Positions 56,815 through 63,168 of a stretch of DNA of 64,000 nucleotides are shown here, piece after piece. The stretch's first letter is position 1, and each line of letters opens with the position of its first letter. The notes under the pieces are model-generated. The model saw only the letters and a program-made list of their open reading frames with translations. It did no database searches and had not been told where the DNA came from. The translations under genes and the position numbers were made by a program. This DNA comes from Akkermansia muciniphila (GTDB lineage: Bacteria; Verrucomicrobiota; Verrucomicrobiia; Verrucomicrobiales; Akkermansiaceae), in the NCBI GenBank assembly GCA_945890645.1, contig CAMDCV010000005.1, positions 62,001-126,000 of the forward strand. Reading direction: 5' to 3'.

Positions 56815-57444
56815 ATGCAGCAGAAGCGTTTTCTCATTCAAGCCATCGCGGCCATCGTCGTGATTTGGCTCATTGTTTTCAGCATTCGTTCCTGGGCCGG
56901 ATCGAAAAAAATCACTGCCGAACGCATTCAAAAGGAAATCGCCGCCGCGTCATTCGCCGACTGGTCCAACGCTGAGTCCTACGATGCCGGCACCGCCAAA
57001 AAGCGAGAAGAAAAAATCCGCGAGATCGCCGATCTCACCAACCGCCTCGATTTCAGCGAGCGCGAAAAGAACCGTGAAAACCGCAGCGGGGAAGCCTTTT
57101 TCCGCGTGCTCAGCCCAGACGAACGCAGTTTATTCATCGAACTCACCGTCGCCGAGAGCATGAATAAATTTATGCAAGCCCTCGATCAAATGCCGCCTGC
57201 CGATCGTCAACGCTTCGTCAAACAAGGGCTCGAAGAAATCGAAAAAGGCAAAACCGCCGAGGATATTGAACGCACACGCGAATTCGGTGACGACGTGGTG
57301 GAAAAAATCACACAGGAAGGCATGCGCGCGTATTTTGAAAAGGCCAGCGTCGATACCAAGCTCGATCTCGCTCCGCTCATGGAATCGATGAACGAAGTCA
57401 TGCAAGGCCTGCGTGGCAATCGTTTCGGCCCACCGCAACGATGA
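56815..57444 (+). CDS. Membrane-anchored helical protein of unknown function
   Basis: The family was not recognised. The 209-residue product has a short basic start (MQQKRF), one transmembrane helix (about 8-26, IQAIAAIVVIWLIVFSI) and a soluble, highly charged, mostly helical remainder rich in Glu, Lys and Arg. The start at 56815 gives a normal signal anchor; an upstream in-frame Met at 56776 would add 13 residues. Its stop overlaps the pseudopilin start (ATGA), so the two may be co-translated, which hints at a role in pilus or secretion assembly, but this is inference only. Confidence 0.6.
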   Translation: MQQKRFLIQAIAAIVVIWLIVFSIRSWAGSKKITAERIQKEIAAASFADWSNAESYDAGTAKKREEKIREIADLTNRLDFSEREKNRENRSGEAFFRVLSPDERSLFIELTVAESMNKFMQALDQMPPADRQRFVKQGLEEIEKGKTAEDIERTREFGDDVVEKITQEGMRAYFEKASVDTKLDLAPLMESMNEVMQGLRGNRFGPPQR

Positions 57445-58058
57445 GAACCATGAGGAAGCAGCTTCACTCAACGGAAAGGAGCACAGGCGTCTCGCCTGTG
57501 TTTCAATCTCCCTTCACAGGCAAGATGCCTGTGCTCCTTTCTTCGTCCCGTCGCGGCTTCACCTTGGTCGAGGTCCTTGTTGTCATCGGCATCATCGTAG
57601 CGCTTACCGCTTTGATCGTCCCGATCAGCCTCTCGATGATCGCCAAATCCCGCCAAGCCGCGTGCCTCAGCAATCTCCGCCAAATCGGCGTGGGCGTGGA
57701 ATCGTATTTGCAGGACAATAACAACACCATGCCCAACCTCGCCGCCGGACGTAAATCTCGCAACGAAGACATCGCGGTAATGGAAAATACTCTCAACGCC
57801 TATCTCGAAAGCGAAGAAGTCTTCCACTGCCCCGAAGACAAAACCTTGTTTGCTGAATCAGGATCGAGCTACTTGTGGAACTCCACGCAAAGCAACCGCA
57901 ATCGCGAGCAACTTGTATTTTTCAACATCAAGGGCGATTCCTCGCGCGTGCCCATCGTCACCGACAAGGAAGCCTGGCACCCCGGTGAGTCGGGCGTGAA
58001 CATTCTTTATGCCGATTACTCCGCCAGCAAGGAATTCAAATTCATCACCTCTCCGTAA
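57441..58058 (+). CDS. Type IV pilin-like/pseudopilin protein with unusually long leader
   Basis: The prepilin N-terminus RRGFTLVEVLVVIGIIVALTA gives the cleavage site between G39 and F40 and the conserved Glu at mature position 5 (E44). The hydrophobic helix is followed by a small soluble domain (CLSNLRQIGVGVESYLQDNNNTMP; CPEDKTLF) typical of the DUF1559/type II pseudopilin-like proteins of PVC bacteria. Counted from 57441 the leader is 39 residues, most of it encoded by a palindromic repeat (57474-57541). An in-frame ATG at 57525 inside that repeat would give a normal 11-residue leader and may be the true start. The enzyme for cleavage is encoded at 5956. Confidence 0.8.
   Translation: MRTMRKQLHSTERSTGVSPVFQSPFTGKMPVLLSSSRRGFTLVEVLVVIGIIVALTALIVPISLSMIAKSRQAACLSNLRQIGVGVESYLQDNNNTMPNLAAGRKSRNEDIAVMENTLNAYLESEEVFHCPEDKTLFAESGSSYLWNSTQSNRNREQLVFFNIKGDSSRVPIVTDKEAWHPGESGVNILYADYSASKEFKFITSP
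57474..57541. repeat. Nested palindromic repeat inside the pseudopilin leader
   Basis: Two 27-nt arms (57474-57500 and 57515-57541) are inverted copies with two mismatches. Each arm is itself a near-perfect hairpin: CACAGGCG / CGCCTGTG in the left and CACAGGCA / TGCCTGTG in the right. The 14-nt middle is TTTCAATCTCCCTT. It sits inside a coding frame, so it is read as Ser-Thr-Gly-Val-Ser-Pro-Val ... Gly-Lys-Met-Pro-Val. Confidence 0.8.
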
Positions 58059-58079
58059 GCGGCCACGCACTTTCGAAAT

Positions 58080-58982
58080 ATGTTAGAAATCAACGACCTC
58101 TGGAAACACTTCCGCGGCATCCCTGCCCTCAAGGGTGTTTCGTTTCGCGTGGAACGCGGGCAAATCTACGGCCTGCTCGGCCACAACGGCGCGGGGAAAA
58201 GCACCACGCTCGGCATCATCCTCGGCATGGTCGCGGCGACCAAGGGCGATGTGGTGATCGATGGCATCTCGATCCAAAAGGACCGCAGTCGCGCGCTGCG
58301 CAAGGTCGGTGCGATCTTTGAAGCGCCATCGTTTTACGAATACCTCAGCGGCTGGCAGAACCTCAAGATTCTCATGAGCTACACTGGCCCCTTCGAGGAA
58401 AAACTTGCGCGTGAAGTCGTCGAACGCGTCGGCCTGACCAAGCGCATCGACTCGAAGGTGCAAACCTACAGCCACGGCATGCGACAACGCCTCGCTCTCG
58501 CACAAGCGCTGCTGCCCGAACCGGAAATTTTATTGTTAGATGAGCCGACCGACGGCCTCGACCCCGAGGGCATCAAGTGGTTCCGCGATTTCATTCTCGA
58601 CCTGCGCAAGGAGCGCGGCATGACGGTGCTGTTCAATTCGCACTTGCTGGCTGAAGTCGAGCAGATGTGCGATCGCATCGCGATCCTGCAAGGCGGCGAG
58701 CGCGTGTTCGAAGGCCCGATCAAAGGCCTCGTCGAAGAACAAATCCGCTACGAAATCGATGCCGATCCCAGCATGCAGATCGGTGCCGTCATCGCGCCCC
58801 ACGGCGGCATTGTGGAAAACGCCGGCGTGATCTACTTGCCCCACACAGTCGATGCCGCACACGTGCTACACGACCTGGTATTCGCTGGCATCAAAGTCCG
58901 CTCGTTCACCCCGAAACGCCGCTCGCTCGAAGACCTTTACATGGAAATCAAACAAGAACACAAACCACGTCTGATCGTATGA
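58080..58982 (+). CDS. ABC transporter ATP-binding protein
   Basis: This 300-residue ATPase of the ABC-2 exporter type has Walker A GHNGAGKST, the ABC signature YSHGMRQRLALAQALL, Walker B ILLLDEPTDGLDP and the switch His in VLFNSHLL. The C-terminal ~80 residues are the usual accessory domain. It overlaps the permease gene by ATGA, so the pair is one functional unit. The substrate is not inferable; neighbours give no hint. Confidence 0.93.
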   Translation: MLEINDLWKHFRGIPALKGVSFRVERGQIYGLLGHNGAGKSTTLGIILGMVAATKGDVVIDGISIQKDRSRALRKVGAIFEAPSFYEYLSGWQNLKILMSYTGPFEEKLAREVVERVGLTKRIDSKVQTYSHGMRQRLALAQALLPEPEILLLDEPTDGLDPEGIKWFRDFILDLRKERGMTVLFNSHLLAEVEQMCDRIAILQGGERVFEGPIKGLVEEQIRYEIDADPSMQIGAVIAPHGGIVENAGVIYLPHTVDAAHVLHDLVFAGIKVRSFTPKRRSLEDLYMEIKQEHKPRLIV

Positions 58983-59827
58983 ATTTCCTCTCCCAACTCT
59001 CGGGCGAAATGCGCAAGTTATTTGCCCGCCCCCGCACCTACATCGGCTACGTCGCTTTCCTCGCGATGGAAATCCTCATCCTCGTGGTGTACAAGCTCGA
59101 CCGCACCCAGGACTACACTCGCAAGCAATTGCAAAACAACGGCCTCGAGTTCGATACCTACTACAGCTCGCTCTCCATCACCTTCACGATCATGTTGCTG
59201 AGCATGTTTGTGTTAGGCTCGGTATTCTTCGCGCTGGTGGCCGGAGACATCGTCGCCAAGGAACATGAAGACGGCAACCTGCGCCTGATCTTCGCCCGAC
59301 CGATCTCACGCTTGCGCTTGTTGTTAGTGAAATATTCTGCCGTCTGCCTTTACACCGTGAGCTTCGTGTTTTTTGTCGGCATCAGTGGTTACGCCATGGC
59401 GGTGGCAGCCGTGGGATGGGAAGGTGGTTTATTTGTGATGGAACCCAAAATGAAAGTCTTCGCCGCCTACCCCGAGTGGAGCGAGGGCGCCTCGCGGCTC
59501 GCATTAGGAGCCTTGGGCATTAGCTTTAGCATGATCACCATCTCGTCGATCGCGTTCATGTTCTCCTGTTTCAAAATGAAACCTGCCGCTGCGACGATCA
59601 TCACGCTGAGCATCTTGTTCGTGGACATGATCCTGCAAAACTTCCCCTTTTTCCGCCCCTACGAAGAATGGTTCGTCACCTGGCGCATGAGCGCCTGGCT
59701 CTTCCTCATGGAAAACCACCTCCCCTGGGCCAAAGTGCTCGAATCCTTCGCGTTCTTAGGCGGCCTCAACGCCACGGTTTTTGTGATCGGATGGCTGAGC
59801 TTTCAGTCGCGGGATTTTAAGACGTGA
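58979..59827 (+). CDS. ABC-2 type permease
   Basis: This 282-residue permease has six membrane segments (about 22-40, 68-92, 112-138, 160-182, 197-217 and 255-275). It shows the ABC-2 pattern including VAGDIVAKEHEDGNLRLIFARPISRLRLLLVKY, the motif linking the permease to the ATPase. The start at 58979 overlaps the ATPase stop. A frame open upstream belongs to the ATPase region in another reading and is not coding. Substrate unknown. Downstream begins the repeat locus, 34 bp after the stop. Confidence 0.87.
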   Translation: MNFLSQLSGEMRKLFARPRTYIGYVAFLAMEILILVVYKLDRTQDYTRKQLQNNGLEFDTYYSSLSITFTIMLLSMFVLGSVFFALVAGDIVAKEHEDGNLRLIFARPISRLRLLLVKYSAVCLYTVSFVFFVGISGYAMAVAAVGWEGGLFVMEPKMKVFAAYPEWSEGASRLALGALGISFSMITISSIAFMFSCFKMKPAAATIITLSILFVDMILQNFPFFRPYEEWFVTWRMSAWLFLMENHLPWAKVLESFAFLGGLNATVFVIGWLSFQSRDFKT

Positions 59828-60386: not shown

Positions 60387-60842
60387 TTATTCCCATACAT
60401 AACGTTCATCGTACGGGATCTTATATTTTTCGAGAAAGGCTCGATACTCTTCTTGAAAGCTACGTTTGCGATGATGTTCCTCTTGCTGGTTGATGTAAGA
60501 AATCACCTGCGGTGTTTCCAACTGACCCACGGAAAACGCACCATAACCTCCTTGCCACGAGAACTGTTGCTGAATTGGTTCATGCTCTTTGATCCAGAGA
60601 CTAGAGGCGCGTTTGATATCTCTAACGAGATCCGCAACTGTCATCGTTCTTGGCAACACGAAACACAAATGAACGTGATCTTCGACCCCGCCCACCGCCA
60701 GTGCATGTCCCCCTTTTTCATTAATCAAACCTCCCAGATACCGATGAAGTTCCGAACGCAAGGATGCATTCTTCAAATAAGGCTCGCGATGCGCCGTAGA
60801 AAAAATCAAATGCACGAGAAGATTCGAGAGTGACTGGGGCAT
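60387..60842 (-). CDS. REP-associated tyrosine transposase (IS200/IS605-like, Y1 HUH)
   Basis: RAYTs are single-strand DNA transposases related to TnpA of IS200/IS605 and act on REP hairpins. The 151-residue protein begins MPQSLSNLLVHLIFSTAHRE and has the HUH metal motif in EDHVHL (H56, H58), SWQGGYGAFSV, the catalytic-Tyr region ISYINQQEEHHRK (Y116 as the likely nucleophile) and the ending KIPYDERYVWE. All catalytic residues look intact. A Met at 60857 is an alternative start. It is flanked by composite repeats on both sides, its presumed substrates. Confidence 0.88.
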   Translation of the reverse strand: MPQSLSNLLVHLIFSTAHREPYLKNASLRSELHRYLGGLINEKGGHALAVGGVEDHVHLCFVLPRTMTVADLVRDIKRASSLWIKEHEPIQQQFSWQGGYGAFSVGQLETPQVISYINQQEEHHRKRSFQEEYRAFLEKYKIPYDERYVWE

Positions 60843-60930
60843 GGTTTTATTTCCCACATCGCCCAGGCGGAGGCAATCACGGATTTAAGGTGGTGCATCG
60901 TCGGGGGAGCTTTCATATTTGTCTATCGAT
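60843..60930. other. Spacer between transposase start and copy 3
   Basis: This 88-bp stretch must carry the transposase promoter on the minus strand. No promoter boxes or hairpins were picked with confidence. Confidence 0.3.
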
Positions 60931-61193: not shown

Positions 61194-62351
61194 TCACCCA
61201 ATCCGATGCGGGTGAAACCTGCTCATGTTTCCGGTGATGGGCGATTGGTCGCCGCGGGCGGAGAGGGCGCAGCAGGTGTCATCGACCATCCATAGGCCCC
61301 AGACGAAGTGGCGACCGCCGGCTTGGAAGAGGGGTGTGCGTTTTTGATAGATCATCTCGGAGGACTCGGCTTGGCCAGTGCCTTGGGCGATGGCTTTGCC
61401 AAATTCGCAGAGGGAGATGCCGCCGCCTTCGCGGCCGTAGATGGGCTTTTCCACCCACTGCGAGATGCCGAGACGGCTCATTTCCTCGCGGGTGCGCGTG
61501 GCGGGCAAGAGCAGCGGATGGTTGGGGTTCAGCTCCCACAGGATGGGCAGCAGGGCTTTGTTCGAGAGCATCATCTTCCACGCGGGTTCGATGAAGCGGG
61601 ATCGCTCGGCGCCGATTTCGGCGAAGAAAGGTTCTTTCACCAACCATTCCCAGGGATAGAGCTTGAAGAGTCGATCAATCGGACGCTCGATGGAATCGGT
61701 GAAGCGACCTTCCTCCGAATAACCGATCTCTGCCATGTCCATGAGGTTCACAGCTTTTCCGGCTTGCTCGGCAGTCTCGGCGAGATAGGCGATGGTTTGT
61801 CGATCTTCGGGGAGGTCCCACGCGCAGGCGAGGTGGATGAGCGGATCAGGCAGAGTTTTCCAGCGCTCGACTAAGGCTTCGTGCAAGGAATTGAGCTGAT
61901 CCGAGCTAGGGTAGCAGTCCTTGAGCCAATCCCACTGAATGACAGCGGCTTCGAGCAAAGACGTGGGGGTATCGGCATTGTACTCGAGGAGTTTCGGCGT
62001 GCCAATGCCATCCCAGGCGAGATCGAAGCGGCCATAGAGCGAGAAATCCTGCGCCGTCCAGGAAGACTGAATGATGCTGGCGAGGTCATCGGAAATCGCG
62101 AGCTTGTGCCACCAATCGCGGCAAATGATTTGCTCACAGGCATCGAGACACATCCCGTGAAGTTCGTTGGCCGCGGCTTCGAGAGTCTCGGCGGCATCCA
62201 GGCTGAAGACGAGGTGTTCATTTTCATTCCAGTACGAATCTGCACCAGCACCGTGCCAGACGAGGCCGGATTCTTCGACGCGCTGGACCCAATTCGGTCG
62301 GGGCTTGCTGGCCTCCAGTCGGATCGGGACGAAGGAAAAATTATAGTTCAT
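61194..62351 (-). CDS. Glutathionylspermidine-synthase-like ATP-grasp protein (YgiC/YjfC type)
   Basis: This 385-residue protein of the GSP-synthase C-terminal family is close in length to E. coli YgiC (about 386). Motifs include SLYGRFDLAWDG, KLLEYNADTPTSLLEAAVIQWDW (binding of the peptide-like substrate and metal), LWELNPNHPLLLPA and the ATP-grasp loop WVEKPIYGREGGGISL. It probably ligates an amine or peptide with ATP, but substrates of the YgiC branch are unknown. The start at 62351 (MNYNFSFVPIRLE) was chosen because the longer frame to 62426 would overlap the lipoprotein gene by 50 bp. It lies 25 bp after that gene. Confidence 0.88.
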   Translation of the reverse strand: MNYNFSFVPIRLEASKPRPNWVQRVEESGLVWHGAGADSYWNENEHLVFSLDAAETLEAAANELHGMCLDACEQIICRDWWHKLAISDDLASIIQSSWTAQDFSLYGRFDLAWDGIGTPKLLEYNADTPTSLLEAAVIQWDWLKDCYPSSDQLNSLHEALVERWKTLPDPLIHLACAWDLPEDRQTIAYLAETAEQAGKAVNLMDMAEIGYSEEGRFTDSIERPIDRLFKLYPWEWLVKEPFFAEIGAERSRFIEPAWKMMLSNKALLPILWELNPNHPLLLPATRTREEMSRLGISQWVEKPIYGREGGGISLCEFGKAIAQGTGQAESSEMIYQKRTPLFQAGGRHFVWGLWMVDDTCCALSARGDQSPITGNMSRFHPHRIG

Positions 62352-62376
62352 GGGCAGAAAGTCGGCGAACGAGAAA

Positions 62377-63168
62377 TCAACTGCCAAACGACGACGAGCT
62401 TCCAGAGCTAGTGCCGCCGAAACCACCGCGCACGGATTTCCCTGCGGTCACGGGTGCACCGCTTTGTTTGCTTTGCTGCACGAGACGTTGGTAACCGGGA
62501 TTAGCGGCGGCGTGTGACCTCACAGTATTGCGATCATTGTTCAAGGACTGCTGCCAGCCTTGTTGGCGCATTTGGGCCTGTTGATATCCGGCACCAGGAG
62601 TAAAGTTGTTGCGATTTCCGGAAAGCATCCAGTACATTAAAAGCATGCTGCCAACACCACTGCCACCATAATGATGGGTCGTGTGATGAGTCGCAGGAGT
62701 AGGGGAAGACGAAGTCCCTCCTCCACCTTCACCGGCTAATTCTTGCTCCTGCTCTTTCGCTAAAATGCCTTCCACCTTTTTCAATGCGGCCTCGGAAGGT
62801 CGGCTGACGGACATGCGCGGTGCTTTGGGTTGGGCATCCACCCACTCGCCATTGGCATACCATTTCCCATCCTTTTCATGACCATAGGCGTAGGGGAAAA
62901 AATCTTGGGCATCGGCATGGTAAAAACCCACGCCGGGAATCTCTAAATTGTGATCTACGTAGCCCTGCGTGAGCTGTGCGCGACGACGATCAATCTCATC
63001 GAGACTCTTTTCCAACTCGGCCATTTGCTGATCCTTCGCTGTGGCCGTGTAGGTCTTATCCGAATCGCACGACGTCAGTCCGACCGTGCCACTGGCCAGC
63101 AGACAAAGAGTGGACCAGTGGAGAATGCCACCGTGGCGGATGCGTGTGAGATCACCGTGTTTCTTCAT
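62377..63168 (-). CDS. YgiB-like (DUF1190-like) lipoprotein
   Basis: The 263-residue product has a basic start (MKKHGDLTRIRHGG), a hydrophobic stretch and a lipobox ending in C34 (GLTSC). Its middle is low-complexity with Ser, Gly, His and Gln. The end, RGGFGGTSSGSSSSFGS, resembles the C-terminus of E. coli YgiB (RGGFG followed by Ser/Gly repeats), and a GSGVGSMLLMYWML segment resembles its central hydrophobic part. The pairing with a YgiC-like gene matches the ygiB-ygiC order in E. coli, which raises confidence. A Met at 63177 is an alternative start. Role unknown. Confidence 0.7.
   Translation of the reverse strand: MKKHGDLTRIRHGGILHWSTLCLLASGTVGLTSCDSDKTYTATAKDQQMAELEKSLDEIDRRRAQLTQGYVDHNLEIPGVGFYHADAQDFFPYAYGHEKDGKWYANGEWVDAQPKAPRMSVSRPSEAALKKVEGILAKEQEQELAGEGGGGTSSSPTPATHHTTHHYGGSGVGSMLLMYWMLSGNRNNFTPGAGYQQAQMRQQGWQQSLNNDRNTVRSHAAANPGYQRLVQQSKQSGAPVTAGKSVRGGFGGTSSGSSSSFGS

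Follow-up and report, generated by a model that had tools for sequence, protein, structure and literature searches.

Described lipoprotein-ligase pairs and glutathionylspermidine synthetase

The bifunctional glutathionylspermidine synthetase (Gsp) carries an amidase domain and takes free glutathione as its substrate, activating the C-terminal glycine of this peptide with ATP and joining the peptide to spermidine. Two E. coli proteins of the same ligase family, YgiC and YjfC, have reportedly been characterised as peptide-spermidine ligases (in work by Pederick dated 2023), the group is said to be treated in an amidoligase survey of 2009, and we know of no physiological substrate of either enzyme. 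Peptide-spermidine ligase is also the product name that RefSeq gives to both. In E. coli K-12, each ligase gene is preceded by a lipoprotein gene, in the order ygiB-ygiC and yjfM-yjfC. YgiB is a lipoprotein with a central hydrophobic segment, a body that is DUF1190 (187 bits), and a TRGGFG tail ending in -GG, and YjfM, from the yjfIJKLMC cluster with its PspA-, DUF2491- and DUF350-type genes, is likewise a tagged lipoprotein (SRGGYG...WGG) adjoining the ligase.

Operons that join DUF350, DUF1190 and an ATP-grasp ligase have already been published in connection with envelope stress, and these too combine a lipoprotein with a Gsp-like ligase; in the portion of that source available to us the lipoprotein is named DUF1190, and neither a common C-terminal tag nor the name stem Verrucomicrobi is mentioned (PMC11237479). 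While the E. coli pairs, the peptide-spermidine ligase activity and the DUF350/DUF1190/ligase operons are thus already known, no description of a tag common to unrelated partners was found in the literature searched, which covered few subscription papers and included, in the portions available, PMC12568646, PMC12506659, PMC10948618, PMC11237479, PMC12270671 and PMC3597751.

A YgiC-type ligase and its partner lipoprotein in Akkermansia muciniphila

The window analysed here, the whole 64,000-nt stretch of an Akkermansia muciniphila contig, holds a pair arranged in the same order as the two K-12 pairs, as had been claimed in a preliminary description, whose gene coordinates, strand and intergenic gap are also correct. 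The partner lipoprotein (263 aa; 62377..63168, minus strand; ATG at 63168, TGA at 62379-62377) lies upstream of the ligase (385 aa; 61194..62351, minus strand; ATG at 62351, TGA at 61196-61194), with 25 nt between them. The assignment of the downstream gene to YgiC-type ATP-grasp ligases (GSP_synth) is borne out by a match to PF03738 that covers model positions 1-371 of 371 (432.5 bits, 2e-129, cut-off 29.3), by nearest solved structures that are YgiC (7uk8, 2e-89) and YjfC (7uk6, 3e-73), by a match to PHROG 6215, and by 41.5% identity to one E. coli ygiC copy. The ligase is present in one copy in the window genome, and no signal peptide is apparent in its sequence.

In contrast to bifunctional Gsp, the window ligase stays far below the Gsp equivalog NF007801 (125.4 bits against a cut-off of 882), and its best stretch on that profile begins at position 249 of 619. 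By alignment, the catalytic residues of Gsp are present in it, namely the counterparts of R316, D318, E330, N332, K498, K533, R538 and R598 of the E. coli enzyme, which we take to be the catalytic arginine and the Mg- and ATP-binding residues. R108 and D110, in a GRFD motif (62022..62033, minus strand), align with R316 and D318; E123 and N125, in an EYNAD motif (61971..61985, minus strand), with E330 and N332; K265 and K302 with K498 and K533; R306 (61434..61436, minus strand) with R538; and R366 (61254..61256, minus strand) with R598.

The partner has a lipobox, LTSC (63067..63078, minus strand), with a predicted lipidated Cys34 that is invariant in 16 aligned relatives and is followed by Asp at +2. 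Among the partner proteins that have a lipobox-like motif, too, Asp follows the Cys more often than any other residue (21 of 54), and in E. coli Asp at this position holds lipoproteins in the inner membrane. A profile match and the AlphaFold model outline a body domain at about residues 74-130 (62779..62949, minus strand), with the pattern PGVGxYHA..FFP..YG..GxWxxxGxW..SRP and a predicted confidence of 77-95 in its blocks, and a central Gly/hydrophobic segment at residues 169-186 (62611..62664, minus strand) is marked by invariant positions in the alignment of relatives. The C-terminus consists of an RGGFG motif (residues 247-251; 62416..62430, minus strand), invariant as VRGGFG in the 16 relatives, and a Ser/Gly tail, GTSSGSSSSFGS (62380..62415, minus strand), whose end, -G-S, is proposed below as an acceptor C-terminus on the basis of terminal-residue counts and predicted disorder. 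The central hydrophobic segment and the RGGFG and Ser/Gly C-terminus are therefore as described earlier. In the AlphaFold model (mean confidence 68.6) the protein is ordered around residues 39-148 and 190-249, and the end, residues 250-263, is predicted to be disordered.

No structural match to this model was found at E<=0.001, the Foldseek matches at E>4 and PDB matches at E 0.018 and 0.53 being dismissed as chance; a weak NCBIfam PsbQ match to residues 18-66 (0.0047; 16.8 bits, where the cut-off is 106.9) was dismissed too. The pair is closely followed by an IS200-like Y1 transposase gene (PF01797, 9e-23; window 60387-60857, minus strand). In two relatives (L018, L027) the ligase is directly followed by convergent genes that read from their sequence as ABC permease-, ABC ATPase- and pilin-like, and the window counterparts of these genes lie farther on, at 57441-59827.

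Relation of the lipoprotein to YgiB

Kinship of the lipoprotein with YgiB and DUF1190, as proposed in the preliminary description, is not supported, and for the body of the protein it was rejected. In contrast to the 187 bits of YgiB itself, the lipoprotein has no Pfam match at E<=1, PF06693 included. When 27 verrucomicrobial lipoproteins were compared by profile with 14 DUF1190-type proteins, the probability was 12% with the tails and 10% without them, with only the signal peptides aligned. The C-terminal halves (28 versus 16 sequences) reached 35% with the tail, aligned solely on RGGFG and a few residues beyond, and 0.4% with the tails cut, so that the profile signal falls to background. The lipoprotein does match PHROG 3739, the family matched by phage DUF1190 partners, at residues 170-263 (E=1.6e-4), which favours the YgiB reading, but this match includes the tail. 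With tails removed, the body instead gave a profile match at 98.8% to the partners of other Verrucomicrobiota (L012-14, L043, L055-57), and this comparison places it in a verrucomicrobial family that has no name. What stands of the proposed YgiB-YgiC-like pair is thus the ligase, the pairing, the gene order and the C-terminus as a common feature, while the lipoprotein body is by profile unrelated to DUF1190, a lack of relation that the preliminary description had named as one half of a refutation and that holds outside the tail.

Conservation of the pair

The lipoprotein and ligase are kept together. Among 57 related genomes, 12 have both genes, 43 have neither, and one genome each has the ligase or a lipoprotein-profile match alone; 13 genomes contain the ligase and 13 give a match to the 16-row lipoprotein profile, so that either is matched in 14 genomes and both in 12 of these 14. 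In all 12 the two are adjacent, with matches 11 to 104 nt apart, and the failure of conservation in related genomes that had been named as refuting evidence was not found. Fisher's test for the co-occurrence gives p = 2e-10, which, since the genomes are mutually related, cannot be read as a tally of separate events. The genome with the ligase alone (G043) has beside it a divergent partner that bears an RGGFG tail (L013). The single profile match in a genome without a ligase match (G039; 9.9e-5) spans only profile positions 140-211 and is held to be spurious. Within the genus, both genes are present in 7 of 10 genomes and neither in the other 3, and few genomes of the phylum have a ligase of this family (15 of 387). 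The gene order is conserved far beyond chance, and the pair behaves like a cassette that is gained or lost jointly.

A common C-terminal tail on unrelated partner bodies

To judge by their sequences, the feature common to partners of these ligases is a C-terminal tail, composed of (R)GGFG and a Ser/Gly-rich stretch that usually ends in G-S or G-G. The loci compared were 62, comprising 36 genome contigs, 3 from relatives, 2 from E. coli, 7 from a phylum search, and 14 phage or plasmid records that were picked for diversity before their partner sequences were read, although some listings named a DUF1190 neighbour; further loci, mostly from the same genomes again, were set aside. At 55 of the 62, the neighbourhood of the ligase includes an ORF on its strand that carries GG[FYW]G within the final 50 residues. 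As background, 63 of all 2719 ORFs of at least 60 residues in these loci (spurious ones included) have the tail pattern, about 8 beyond the 55. The motif takes the form GGFG in 54 of the 55 partners and is preceded by R in 48, and 7-25 mostly Ser/Gly residues follow it. The last residue is S in 33, G in 20, T in one (L033) and E in one (L045), and the penultimate residue is G in 43.

At four of the seven other loci variants of the tail can be recognised by eye, namely RGGLG in Nocardia (L080), SRGGLT in Deinococcus (L082), RQGFGG in Rhizobium (L079), and, in Pseudoclavibacter (L049), a repeated SGFG on a lipoprotein downstream of the ligase. A recognisable tail is absent at the remaining 3 of the 62 loci (L044; the phage locus L078; and L084, whose ligase is 30% identical). 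Of six extra plasmid loci, five have strict tails and one has AGFG; this sample is biased, since four of the six were picked by a YgiB match. In the window genome, a scan that covered the CGN and not the AGR arginine codons gave 8 RGGFG matches, one of which is a Ser/Gly-tailed sizeable ORF, this lipoprotein; in three congeners without the ligase, none of the 22 CGN matches examined (of 23) is the Ser/Gly tail of a sizeable ORF.

The bodies that carry the tail are diverse. Once signal and tail had been cut off, the bodies of 63 partners fell into 8 single-linkage clusters (blastp, E<=1e-3), the largest being a verrucomicrobial cluster of 35, which includes one Bacteroidetes member, and a DUF1190 cluster of 20; one of the 8 is apparently soluble. 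By record titles and taxonomy lines, the tailed records come from Verrucomicrobiota, Burkholderiales and other Pseudomonadota, Acidobacteria, Desulfuromonadales, Actinobacteria, Armatimonadetes and Bacteroidetes, and the tail beside a ligase spans at least seven phyla, and tailed phages as well. The gene order is reversed at Sulfitobacter and Rhodobacter loci. In three distant Verrucomicrobiota (L067-L069), a DUF350-type membrane protein (above the Pfam cut-off in one of the three), a distant GSP_synth and a tailed protein occur together. These tailed proteins have about 260-310 residues, an AGGFG-type tail with Ser/Pro, and no Pfam assignment above cut-off, and no signal peptide or lipobox is visible in their sequences; the tail therefore accompanies the ligase also beside partners that seem cytosolic.

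Among clear phage records, 6 of 7 (L071, L072 and L074-L078) have, on the ligase strand, a tagged lipoprotein gene that precedes the ligase gene by at most 2.5 kb and no more than two intervening genes. The phages with both (L071, L072, L074-L077) have Achromobacter, Ochrobactrum, Aeromonas and Acinetobacter as hosts, and a further record labelled as phage (L073) has neighbours that look bacterial. In Achromobacter phage Motura the genes for homospermidine synthase, tagged lipoprotein and ligase are consecutive, and in Aeromonas phage LAh_6 a potassium-channel gene, a DUF1190 protein gene and the ligase gene occur together.

Transport genes were also seen beside several of the ligases. Ion- or potassium-channel genes occur at two phage loci (L076, 1570-1944; L078, 1490-2476, judged from its sequence), in Rhizobium (L079, 213-1268) and in Deinococcus (L082, 4154-4987). 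Genes for SMR-type small transporters, a family in which some pairs export spermidine, adjoin the ligase cluster of one Acinetobacter phage (L075, 1161-1502) and one Acinetobacter plasmid (L095, 1799-2146).

Proposed modification of the tail and alternative explanations

As unrelated partners beside the ligase carry the same short tail, the tail is suggested to be what the enzyme acts on. This strengthens and sharpens the earlier idea that the low-complexity tail is a substrate, in that the conserved -G[S/G] C-terminus appears a likelier acceptor than the Ser/Gly side chains; a small terminal S or G, like the Gly activated by Gsp, would fit an acceptor C-terminus. The window genome contains nspC, a polyamine decarboxylase gene (452 bits), and the organism can probably make a spermidine-type polyamine. 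Spermidine-synthase-type matches in the genome lie partly within long frames of 850-920 residues. We consider it about an even bet that the two genes make up a protein-modification cassette in which the ligase joins a polyamine to the lipoprotein tail before export. In such a cassette, the lipoprotein would be synthesised in the cytosol and end in a tag made up of RGGFG and a flexible Ser/Gly stretch with Gly-Ser as its last two residues, and a cytosolic YgiC-type ligase would recognise this tag, phosphorylate the terminal carboxylate of the tail with ATP, as Gsp does with the glycine of glutathione, and then join the polyamine to the tail terminus. Lipidation and anchoring would come afterwards and leave the lipoprotein with a flexible end that carries positive charge and faces the periplasm. 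We infer the tail as substrate, a polyamine as the amine in this organism, and the modification before export; the last would follow from a ligase without an apparent signal peptide, most partners being exported, and this timing is assumed together with the cytosolic location of the ligase. The three loci that lack a recognisable tail, and the two partners whose last residue is Glu or Thr, count against the cassette reading.

The tail could also be bound by the ligase without being modified. It may be a docking or regulatory element that holds the ligase at the membrane or activates it, while the ligase conjugates polyamine to another small peptide, as would suit the peptide-spermidine ligase described for E. 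coli YgiC, and the constancy of GGFG (54 of 55 partners), beside a terminal residue that can be either S or G, is what would be expected of a binding site. Docking leaves unexplained the near-universal S or G as last residue and the mostly G penultimate residue, however, and docking at a membrane sits poorly with tails on partners that lack a visible anchor, so that this reading, the strongest of the alternatives, is rather unlikely.

It is more doubtful that the two genes form an ordinary operon with co-regulation only, in which the tail serves the envelope, for instance by packing within the partner's own fold or by binding another envelope protein, and the ligase acts elsewhere. In the AlphaFold model part of the motif is ordered (residues 245-247 form a strand, and block 241-250 has a mean confidence of 71), and RGGFG may accordingly serve inside the partner's own fold. 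A readthrough construct joining tail and ligase (L017) also showed no docking, with confidence below 50 at residues 33-59, in a prediction made as a single chain from a 33-row alignment and with a C-terminus that was not free; this result speaks neither for nor against modification of the tail. Against this reading, the tail persists near the ligase across replaced bodies, reversed gene order, phages and apparently soluble partners. DUF350, a possible common envelope partner present in the yjfIJKLMC cluster, was rejected in this role for the window genome, where it has no match.

The least probable of the three, a little behind the ordinary operon, is a ligase that does modify the tail but attaches an amino acid, or an amine other than a polyamine; the donor cannot be read from sequence and the spermidine-synthase-type matches lie partly in the long frames noted above, but the ligase is close to YgiC, reported to act with spermidine, nspC is in the genome, homospermidine synthase adjoins the pair of phage Motura, and the published operons, in the portion of the source available, include polyamine genes (PMC11237479).

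Implications for the ligase family

Returning to the preferred reading, in which a polyamine is joined to the tail, a wider form of it can be put forward tentatively, and we consider it less likely than not: the (R)GGFG and Ser/Gly tail would be a portable conjugation tag, with a dedicated cytosolic ligase adding polyamine to the C-terminus of any carrier, in at least seven phyla and in tailed phages. Since most carriers of the tag are membrane-anchored, the product would be a polycation tethered at the membrane, and, if this is true, its targets could include the cation channels whose genes adjoin several of the pairs. The verrucomicrobial pair shows that the partner body is replaceable while the tail remains. 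This suggests that the substrate or docking site is a short peptide, amenable to synthesis, and the question is therefore testable with peptides and E. coli K-12 proteins.
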